60,131 nt of DNA from Nitrospirota bacterium. GTDB lineage: Bacteria > Nitrospirota > UBA9217. Positions 3,506 through 41,621 of this stretch are shown piece by piece. The DNA lies in NCBI GenBank assembly GCA_035516965.1, contig DATIZR010000023.1, positions 1-60,131 of the forward strand, read 5' to 3'. The notes under the pieces are model-generated. The model did not search any database, was not told the DNA's origin, and saw nothing but the letters and a program-made list of their open reading frames with translations. How positions within the stretch are numbered: the first letter of the stretch is position 1; each line of letters opens with the position of its first letter. The position numbers and the translations under genes were made by a program.

Positions 3506-3550
3506 AAAAAAGCCGAGCGTCCCAAAAGGTTCAACCTTCGGTAGCTCGGC
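3506..3550 (-). terminator. Intrinsic terminator overlapping the riboswitch
   Basis: On the minus strand GCCGAGC (3550-3544) can pair with GCTCGGC (3518-3512), followed by six T (3511-3506). The 5' arm is also the 3' side of the aptamer, so aptamer folding and terminator folding should exclude each other. That predicts terminator disruption, and gene activation, when ligand binds. This is an inference from arm overlap only. Confidence 0.7.
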
Positions 3551-3620
3551 CATCATGATCCGTAAAGACCCGCCGCTTTCCGTCCCTATCTCATGACAGG
3601 TTTGGCTTTATCGGGTTTTC
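3536..3620 (-). promoter_or_regulatory. c-di-GMP-I (GEMM) riboswitch aptamer
   Basis: Read on the minus strand, the conserved GEMM-I blocks appear in order: ATAAAGCCAAACC; a hairpin CCTGTC-ATGA-GATAGG; GGGACGGAAAGC; GGCGGGTCT; a variable loop; then ATGGCCGAGCTACCG. Relative to the usual consensus (GGCAAACC and GGGACGCAAAGC), the G-C pair joining these two blocks is exchanged for C-G on both sides, a compensatory change that supports a folded RNA. The position matching the ligand-contacting G20 still reads G, as in c-di-GMP rather than cGAMP-type GEMM. The P2 tetraloop is AUGA rather than GNRA. A promoter lies upstream and a terminator plus a gene with a strong ribosome site downstream. Confidence 0.8.
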
Positions 3621-38601: not shown

Positions 38602-38630
38602 TTGACATTGAAGCTCTTCTTTGTTATGGT
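38602..38630 (+). promoter_or_regulatory. Promoter of the hsp20 transcript
   Basis: TTGACA (38602-38607), a 17-base spacer and TATGGT (38625-38630) with an extended-10 TGT. Predicted start at about 38637, giving a structured leader of about 137 bases. A weaker TACAAT at 38677 is an alternative without a -35. Confidence 0.55.
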
Positions 38631-38683
38631 TCTATCGGTTTCAGTATTTCTTGATTCTTTTTATTTCAGAAAGCGCTACAATA

Positions 38684-38743
38684 AAACCAGCGGCATCCTC
38701 TTTCCTGTTACTGACCTGACAGCTCACGAATCACCGCTGGTTT
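38684..38743 (+). promoter_or_regulatory. Long-range 10-bp leader stem
   Basis: AAACCAGCGG (38684-38693) pairs perfectly with CCGCTGGTTT (38734-38743). The 40-base interior contains a second hairpin, CTGTTA/TGACAG. It ends four bases before the ribosome-site hairpin, the arrangement seen in multi-hairpin thermosensor leaders. Confidence 0.55.
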
Positions 38744-38747
38744 GACA

Positions 38748-38768
38748 ACGCCTTTTGAAAGGAGGCGT
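38748..38768 (+). promoter_or_regulatory. FourU-type RNA thermometer masking the hsp20 ribosome site
   Basis: In RNA, ACGCCUUUU (38748-38756) pairs with AGGAGGCGU (38760-38768) around a GAA loop. The four U pair with AGGA, part of the Shine-Dalgarno, through two U-A and two U-G pairs. This is the defining geometry of fourU thermometers, known from the small heat-shock gene agsA of Salmonella. The lower five pairs are A-U, C-G, G-C, C-G, C-G. The stem should hide the ribosome site at low temperature and open when warm. Confidence 0.75.
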
Positions 38769-38773
38769 CCTGA

Positions 38774-39175
38774 TTGCGATACAAGTACATAGCCTATAAG
38801 TATTCGAGGCGGAGCGGGTCTGAGACGGTTTTCCACGGAACCTGGGACTCCTTCGGCGCCTGGTCTCACCCGTCAAGAATAGTCTGGCGGCCGGCGACCG
38901 ATGTGTTTGAAACGCGGGACGAGTTGGTTGTCGTCATGGAGCTTGCCGGCGTTACCGAGGACGACATGTCGGTAACACTTTTCAGCGACCTCCTGGTCGT
39001 CGACGGTATACGGCATCAGCCCTCGGTTACCAAAGTGAATGCATACCACCAACTGGGTATCAAATACGGAGAGTTCCGGTCCGAAGTGCATGTCCCGTTT
39101 CCGGTCGATACGTCGAAGGTCAAAGCGGAGTATAACAATGGATTACTGAGGATTTCCCTTACCAAGCTCGACTGA
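38774..39175 (+). CDS. Small heat-shock protein (Hsp20/alpha-crystallin family)
   Basis: A 133-residue ATP-independent holdase chaperone. The alpha-crystallin domain runs from about residue 38 to the end: PATDVFETRDELVVVMELAGVTEDDMSVTLFSDLLVVDGIR, then EFRSEVHVPFPVDTSKVKAEYNNGLLRISLTKLD. The A-x-x-x-n-G-v-L motif reads AEYNNGLL. The usual C-terminal I-x-I extension is absent, so oligomerisation may differ. The start is TTG with GGAGG eight bases upstream, and that site is inside the fourU hairpin. It lies 70 bases ahead of lon, so chaperone and protease are probably co-transcribed. Confidence 0.9.
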   Translation: MRYKYIAYKYSRRSGSETVFHGTWDSFGAWSHPSRIVWRPATDVFETRDELVVVMELAGVTEDDMSVTLFSDLLVVDGIRHQPSVTKVNAYHQLGIKYGEFRSEVHVPFPVDTSKVKAEYNNGLLRISLTKLD

Positions 39176-39245
39176 GACGGGAACGAAGGTGCGTTTATTG
39201 GGATTTCTCAAGAAGTTGTTCAAAAAACAAGTCAGGAGCACAGTC

Positions 39246-41621
39246 ATGGAAATGACGGATGCAGAAACTGAAAAAATACCGGTGGTGCCCCCGGAACTTC
39301 CTCTCCTGCCGCTGAAAGATACGGTTGTTTACCCGCTCACGGTCTACCCGCTCGTTATCGGCAAGGAGAAATCCATCAAGCTGATCAACGATGTGACGGT
39401 CGGCGACAAGACCCTGGCGTTGACGGCACAGCGAAAAGCGGACACCGAGGTCTCCGGCATCACCGACATTTACACGATCGGCACCATGGCGCGCATTCTG
39501 CAGATGGTCAAGGCGCCTGACGGGACGCTGCGCGTGCTCGTGCAGGGGCTTGAGCGGATCAGCATCGACCAGTTCGTGCAGACCAATCCCTATATCAAGG
39601 CCGGCATCAAGGCAATTCCGGACCGCGCCGAGAAATCGGTGCAAATGGAAGGGCTGATGCGCGGCGTGGCGGAGCTCTTCCAGAAAATGGTGAGCCTTAT
39701 GCCCAACATGCCCGAAGAGCTCTCGGCAGCCGCCACGAACATCGAAGACCCCCGCCAGCTCGTGTACCTCATTGCCACGAACATCAGGATGGACCTGCCT
39801 CAGCGCCAGGAACTCCTCGAGAACGAGAACGTCTTCGACAAGCTGACGAAGCTCATGCAGCATCTGAACCGCGAGGTCGAAGTTCTTGAACTGGGCAGGA
39901 AGATCCAGGGCCAGGCGCGGGACCAAATGCAGAAAGCGGAGCGAGAGTACCTCCTCAGGCAGCAGCTCTCGGCAATCCGGAAGGAACTCGGCGAGGAGTC
40001 CGACGAGGGATCGGAGAGCAAGGCCCTGAGGGAGAAGATCGAATCGGCAAAGCTACCGCCGGAAGCGGAAAAAGAGGCGAAACGCGAGCTTTCCCGGATG
40101 GAGAAGCTGAACGCCGCTTCTCCCGAGTATTCGGTCATCCGCACCTATCTGGAATGGATCACCAGCCTTCCCTGGAACAAGACCTCGGCGTCTCCCATAG
40201 ACATCGGAAAGGCGAAGACCACGCTGGATACGGACCATTACGACCTTGAAAAGGTGAAGGACCGCGTCCTGGAATACCTTGCAGTCAAGAAGCTGGGGCA
40301 GGAGCGGGGGGCCCAGGACGGCGGCAAGATCCGGGAGCCGATACTCTGTTTTGTCGGGCCGCCGGGAGTCGGCAAGACCTCGCTCGGTCAGTCCATCGCG
40401 CGGGCCCTCGACCGGAAGTTCATGCGCATGTCTCTGGGAGGGCTCCATGACGAAGCGGAGATCCGCGGCCACCGCCGGACGTACATCGGCGCGATGCCCG
40501 GCCGGATCATCCAGGCGATCAAGCGCATCGAAACAAAGGATCCGGTGATAATGCTCGACGAAGTGGACAAGGTGGGCGCGGACTGGCGGGGCGACCCGTC
40601 CTCGGCGCTGCTCGAAGTGCTCGACCCCGAGCAGAACAAGGATTTTCGGGACAACTATCTCGATGTGCCCTTCGACCTTTCCCAGGTAATGTTCATTACC
40701 ACGGCAAACCAGCTTGACACGATACCGCCGCCGCTGCTGGACCGGATGGAAGTGCTGCACCTGCCCGGGTACACAGAGCATGAGAAGCTGAACATCGCCA
40801 AAAAGTACCTGATCCCGAAGGAGATCAGGGCGAACGCTCTCAAAGACGATGAGATTGTGATCGACGATGACACGGTCCGGGCCATCATCAAGGACTACAC
40901 GCGCGAGGCAGGCGTCAGGAACCTGGAGCGGGAGATCGCAAACGTGTGCCGCAAGGTTGCAAAGAGCGTGGCGGAGGACAAGCCGGCTCCGGTCACGGTC
41001 AAGGCCGAGGATCTCCATGATTACCTCGGGAATCCCCGGTTCTTCGCGGAAACCGCGATCCGCATCGATCGCCCGGGGGTCGTTACCGGCCTTGCCTGGA
41101 CGCCGACGGGAGGGGACATCCTGTTCATCGAAGCGACCATGATGCCGGGGAACAAGCAGCTGACGCTCACCGGCCAACTGGGCGATGTCATGAAAGAATC
41201 AGCACAGGCGGCCCTGTCCTACGTCCGCTCGCAGGCGGAAAAACTCGGCATCCACAAGGACTTTTACGAGAAAACAGACATCCATATCCACGTTCCAGCG
41301 GGCGCTATTCCCAAGGATGGCCCCTCGGCCGGCGTTACCATGACCACGGCCATCATTTCGATGCTGACCGGGAAGATTGCAAAGCATGACCTCGCTATGA
41401 CCGGCGAGATCACGCTCCGGGGAAAGGTCATGCCGATCGGGGGTGTGAAGGAGAAGGTGCTCGCGGCAAAGCGGGCGGGGATCAAGACCGTGATCCTGCC
41501 GGCACAGAACAAAAACGACATCCAGGACGTGCCGGAGGACCTCCGGAAGGAGATGAACTTCGTCTTCGTAGACACGATCGACCAGGTCATCGACGCCGCG
41601 CTGGACGGTACAAAGAGCTAA
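39246..41621 (+). CDS. lon: ATP-dependent protease Lon
   Basis: Lon degrades damaged and regulatory proteins. The 791-residue product has the LonN substrate domain ([13 protein letters not shown] at the start), a coiled-coil region, AAA+ motifs ([25 protein letters not shown]) and the protease domain with the catalytic serine in [11 protein letters not shown] and lysine in [14 protein letters not shown]. The ATG at 39246 is used because AGGAG lies eight bases before it and LonN homology follows; a GTG at 39189 would add 19 basic residues. It sits behind the heat-regulated hsp20 and four bases before lipA. Confidence 0.96.

Follow-up and report, generated by a model that had tools for sequence, protein, structure and literature searches.

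FourU RNA thermometers are defined by at least four consecutive U residues paired with the Shine-Dalgarno (SD) sequence, at least two G-U pairs, and a position as the terminal hairpin of a leader that holds one to four hairpins (PMC11182007). The class has been called poorly conserved (PMC4166951). The initial annotation of the locus described here, which proposed a fourU thermometer on an hsp20 gene ahead of lon, regarded such elements as rarely reported outside Gammaproteobacteria, a view that is softened by reports from Bacillus and its prophage and from gut bacteria such as Mediterraneibacter (PMC11182007, PMC10586365). For the Synechocystis hsp17 thermometer, the reported pairing is UCCU with AGGA (PMC4477652). 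No RNA thermometer of Nitrospirota was found in the open literature searched.

The locus lies in a stretch of 60,131 nucleotides, analysed whole and called the window below, which is one contig of a 3.8-Mb Nitrospirota genome. The hairpin ahead of hsp20 consists of the following features:

38748..38768, + strand: SD-occluding hairpin of 9 bp with a GAA loop, ACGCCTTTT-GAA-AGGAGGCGT (whole element ACGCCTTTTGAAAGGAGGCGT)
38753..38756, + strand: UUUU anti-SD, pairing with AGGA at 38760-38763 (two U-G and two U-A pairs)
38760..38765, + strand: Shine-Dalgarno sequence AGGAGG, 8 nt ahead of the TTG at 38774

The pairs on the clamp side are 38748-38768 (A-U) and, by their last two digits, 49-67 (C-G), 50-66 (G-C), 51-65 (C-G) and 52-64 (C-G); those on the loop side are 53-63 (U-A), 54-62 (U-G), 55-61 (U-G) and 56-60 (U-A). 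The segment 38740-38780 has a folding energy of -10.1 kcal/mol at 37 C. The observation of a hairpin over the SD is thus confirmed: sequence and fold bear out the annotated 9-bp, GAA-triloop structure burying the ribosome site of a TTG-started hsp20, and the four consecutive U residues do pair with AGGA. The stem, described as perfect, is uninterrupted over its 9 bp when two G-U wobbles are counted as pairs.

Set against the definition of a fourU, UUUU 38753-38756 lies on the SD at AGGA 38760-38763, the wobbles U54-G62 and U55-G61 supply two G-U pairs, and the hairpin is terminal in most predicted folds from the putative transcript start, one choice of ends folding otherwise. The Rfam FourU model (RF01795) has no match in the window or the whole genome; this is weak evidence, as none of 14 control genomes exceeds the cut-off of that model either. 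Rfam searches at gathering and permissive thresholds gave no more than chance-level matches at the hairpin site, and Rfam ROSE had no match. Elsewhere in the window, a c-di-GMP-I-GGC riboswitch occurs at 3536-3615 on the minus strand (64.6 bits, above the Rfam gathering score).

The hairpin precedes two closely spaced genes:

38774..39175, + strand: hsp20, 133 amino acids, TTG start (Pfam HSP20, E 2.4e-12; orthologues 57-76% identical)
39189..41621, + strand: lon, 810 amino acids from GTG 39189 (alternative ATG 39246), with Pfam Lon domains

Comparison within the genus used one genome, Nitrospirae bacterium GWC2_57_9, and twelve further genomes came from the same family. Among these 13 genomes, 11 have a full hsp20 orthologue, one has an orthologue truncated at a contig end, and one has none at that level; a scan of named genomes gave no leader beyond those already in the family set. 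The TTG start of hsp20 is right, because the orthologues of 11 family members align from residue 1; all but one start with GTG or TTG. The initial annotation placed lon 70 bases downstream. That distance is probably wrong, since a conserved N-terminal sequence of the K...KLFKK...R type precedes the usual lon ATG in 10 of 11 relatives. In the same 10, the lon start codon falls 7-29 nt past the hsp20 stop (the motif search gave no clear start for L007, the eleventh), and the sequence comparison indicates that lon in the window probably starts at GTG 39189, 13 rather than 70 bases after hsp20. The extension itself (VRLLGFLKKLFKKQVRST..., 39189-39245) is conserved, basic and amphipathic-looking, with similar sequences ahead of lon in family relatives. 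No terminator-like site was found in the hsp20-lon gap. A lon start at 13 nt makes joint control of the two genes more plausible, and translational coupling between them is possible from their arrangement.

Upstream of hsp20, the predicted organisation is as follows:

38602..38630, + strand: sigma-70-like promoter TTGACA-17-TATGGT with TG before the -10; predicted transcript start at about 38637-38639
38638..38773, + strand: predicted hsp20 5' leader of about 135 nt, counted from the putative transcript start
38684..38743, + strand: upstream hairpin, with arms 38684-38693 AAACCAGCGG and 38734-38743 CCGCTGGTTT, 10 bp without mismatch

The promoter and the leader length are kept within the genus, as judged from two species: the congener has TTGACT-17-TATCGT in a matching position (-143) and form. 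The upstream hairpin, which contains an inner 6-bp stem at 38705-38722, is not conserved in GWC2_57_9. The two congeneric leaders have in common the promoter site, a 15-base block (AAAGCGCTACAATAA, 38670-38684) and TTTTGAAAGGAGGCGT, and little else. The block is identical in the congener, similar in L003 and L006 (AAAGCGTTAAAATAA), and has no second copy in the genome when up to one mismatch is allowed; it may be a further -10 element or a site for a regulator. Its identity in the congener, its likeness in two other leaders and its uniqueness in the genome would also suit a different kind of leader switch, in which a small RNA, a protein or an alternative fold with the block acts on the ribosome site and heat is not the signal, and one fold does pair the stretch just before and into 38670-38684 with the anti-SD arm. 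However, the block could equally well act at the DNA level, for example as a second -10, and no such alternative pairing is predicted for the congener; a switch of this kind is very improbable.

The stem by itself is unremarkable because the window holds 134 stems of 9 bp on both strands (GU allowed, loop 3-8), where a first-order Markov control gives about 54 per strand. An SD-like motif followed by a start triplet is covered by only three of these stems, namely the hsp20 hairpin and two others, at 2846 and 9060, next to putative starts. The pairing probability of the SD was dropped as a measure, as shuffled leaders also pair AGGAGG well; the free-energy cost of opening the SD was therefore used instead, computed locally on the SD with 30 nt of upstream and 8 nt of downstream sequence. 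The background was a genome sample of 391 leaders with automatic start calls (270 from the window genome and 121 from the congener). The local opening cost for hsp20 in the window is 9.1 kcal/mol, a value reached by 0.7% of the 270 SD-bearing leaders of the same genome; the two leaders that reach it score higher and have apparently poorly supported gene starts. When all 130 nt of leader are included, the cost is 6.2 kcal/mol and hsp20 ranks only within the top 16%, since sequence further upstream then competes for the anti-SD arm. For some choices of ends, the minimum-energy fold of the full leader becomes a long-range alternative, the SD staying mostly paired. In GWC2_57_9, the hsp20 SD costs 9.8 kcal/mol locally and 9.9 kcal/mol in the long leader, and none of the 121 leaders from that genome reach these values.

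Occlusion of this depth is not general to the heat-shock genes of the source genome, where dnaK (1.0), dnaJ (1.4), groES (1.8), grpE (4.1) and a second hsp20 (2.7 kcal/mol) have SDs that are open or ordinary. The gene clpB (G000 C17, leader L139) was considered as a second occluded heat-shock gene and rejected: it costs about 9 kcal/mol here, like hsp20, but its congeneric orthologue is open (2.3), so single-genome values easily mislead. The clpB case is among the points that favour reading the hsp20 hairpin as chance structure without function, AGGAGG pairing easily in any leader that contains pyrimidines. Also in its favour are a stem count near chance in the window, the higher scores of two starts of this genome that have weak support, a pairing that is unconserved in the congener, and the 10% of upstream shuffles that reach the window hsp20 value taken alone. 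Against it, the congener is independently among the deepest of its own genome, the joint value of the congeneric pair was reached in only 2 of 300 sets of upstream shuffles, and the outer clamp shows covariation, as detailed below; pure chance is on balance rather unlikely. The joint value of all 12 family leaders was reached in 11 of 300 sets, and in a small control none of nine background orthologue pairs was deep (7 or more) in both species.

In GWC2_57_9, three of the nine hairpin pairs of the window are broken, and the AGGA of the SD is predicted to form a longer stem instead, pairing with a UCCU that lies upstream. A UUUU adjoining AGGA is present only in the window and the congener, whose predicted fold uses the UCCU; the UUUU-AGGA pairing is absent from the other 10 family leaders. 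AAAGG(A/G)G at the SD is largely conserved among family leaders. Several of these are fairly deep (L005 8.5, L004 7.2 and L008 6.4 kcal/mol) and L007 and L011 are intermediate (5.1), while SD occlusion is ordinary in L003, L006 and L009 and, computed locally, low in L010 and L012. In L010, a 9-bp hairpin (CAGCTGCC...GGCAGCTG) ends just 5' of the SD and a further stem lies over the GTG start codon, so that this leader is arranged differently again. Within the genus, the predicted folds thus retain the occlusion while exchanging the anti-SD partner; across the family, occlusion is retained only in part and with changing partners. Orthologous leaders lacking a conserved pairing to the ribosome site had been named beforehand as evidence against a thermometer, and on this point the outcome is mixed: the SD of the congener is occluded, but through a predicted UCCU pairing, and several other leaders are ordinary. 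The published definition of a fourU does not itself ask for conservation among orthologues.

Covariation of the stem was assessed in an alignment that was anchored on the SD and free of gaps. Of 168 possible four-pair registers, that of the outer four pairs proved best, being complete in 4 of 11 sequences, with letters differing each time, against a mean of 0.3 per register; the focus on these pairs was chosen after the table was seen and is partly post hoc, in a small sample. The fully paired set comprises L001, L003 (its near copy L006 counted once), L005 and L009, and in L012 this register gives six pairs, displaced outward by one step. Permuting the 3' arms gave 0.004 (0.014 without the window). 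A pair counter found 62.5% of cells paired (1 of 500 shuffles), and the covariation score exceeds all 500 shuffles, with a slide of +3 giving an equal number of double changes. The sequences used for pair counting and covariation differed by one base at their ends, and MAFFT put the SD columns in register. Neither the two wobble pairs nor the last U-A pair shows a double change in the family alignment, and RNAalifold found no consensus structure for the 12 leaders. The proposed check on orthologous leaders therefore came out in part: the outer four pairs covary partially, which is suggestive, but the inner pairs lack double changes and no consensus fold emerges.

The initial annotation also suggested folding the leader at rising temperatures to look for loss of the stem. 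The energy model predicts no sharp melting, either at 37-50 C or over 20-60 C; the opening cost of the window leader (short window) falls smoothly from 10.9 to 6.0 kcal/mol over 20-60 C. For ibpB of E. coli, a known RNA thermometer, the identical calculation gives 9.5 to 3.8 kcal/mol, likewise without a sharp switch. The ROSE-like element of E. coli ibpA depends on non-canonical pairs and is not captured at all by the calculation. As ibpB is equally smooth and ibpA is missed, the energy model neither supports nor excludes a thermometer; that the opening cost is of the same order as that of the validated ibpB was counted for the thermometer reading. Nor is a stable stem disqualifying, since the fourU of blyA has a measured overall melting point of 69.4 C and yet responds at 37-42 C (PMC10586365).

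These predictions bear on a further explanation, constitutive damping, by which the hairpin and the weak TTG start would simply keep Hsp20 low, temperature would have no useful effect within the physiological range, and any heat induction would be transcriptional. It would fit with the lack of predicted sharp melting, with a very stable GC clamp, with the GTG or TTG starts of nearly all relatives, which are consistent with low initiation, and with rpoH-related sigma factors in the genome, which fall below the curated rpoH cut-off. However, ibpB of E. coli also lacks sharp melting in the model, so long a leader is unexpected for a gene that is just weak, the promoter looks sigma-70-like, and small heat-shock genes are classic targets of RNA thermometers (PMC4166951). 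Damping of this kind is a serious candidate, though less likely than not.

The alternative weighed most heavily here is a thermometer. The hairpin, an unusually deep local SD occlusion in both congeneric species, and the tight hsp20-lon arrangement are directly supported. In the proposed mechanism, an hsp20-lon transcript would start at the sigma-70-like promoter with a leader of about 135 nt, and its last hairpin would pair the SD with UUUU inside a GC clamp, so that ribosomes load poorly at low temperature. Heat would loosen the hairpin from the U-G/U-A end beside the loop, allowing more Hsp20 synthesis, and lon, 13 nt past the hsp20 stop, may rise with hsp20 by translational coupling. Of these steps, we infer where the transcript starts, that heat is the signal, how far the hairpin opens and that lon is coupled. 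The chances are about even that heat-relieved occlusion of the SD holds down translation of hsp20, and perhaps of lon. The broader proposition, that this Nitrospirota lineage keeps an SD-occluding thermometer on hsp20-lon, swaps its anti-SD between fourU and UCCU, and gates both genes by translational coupling, is doubtful and offered tentatively.

If functional, the hairpin would extend RNA thermometers to Nitrospirota and would place Lon protease under an RNA control common to a small heat-shock protein. The two congeners would form a natural pair of close species that hide one ribosome site by two known anti-SD types, a pair that would help to explain why thermometers look unconserved.

Among known systems, the ROSE and ROSE-like elements (hspA, ibpA, ibpB) resemble this locus in that a leader of several hairpins, the last one containing the SD, precedes a small heat-shock gene; unlike them, the window has CCUUUU rather than U(U/C)GCU opposite the SD, and no bulged G. 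The likeness to fourUs of the Salmonella agsA type, found also in blyA of Bacillus phage SPbeta, is closer and includes four U residues on AGGA, two G-U pairs, a terminal hairpin after an upstream hairpin, and, for agsA, a small heat-shock gene. The window differs from these in its uninterrupted 9-bp stem, GC clamp and triloop, in having no covariance-model match, and in a pairing that is unconserved within the genus. The fourU label given initially therefore holds in form, for a motif of the defined kind on a small heat-shock gene, but does not extend to a conserved fourU pairing: it is right for the pairing, unproven for function, and wrong if a conserved element is implied, the congener being predicted to use UCCU and ten other leaders lacking UUUU-AGGA. 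Compared with the Synechocystis hsp17 thermometer, the window uses UUUU in place of UCCU, its leader is longer and its start codon lies outside the stem; hsp17 is alike in placing an SD-occluding hairpin on a small heat-shock gene, and its UCCU-AGGA pairing is the one predicted in GWC2_57_9.
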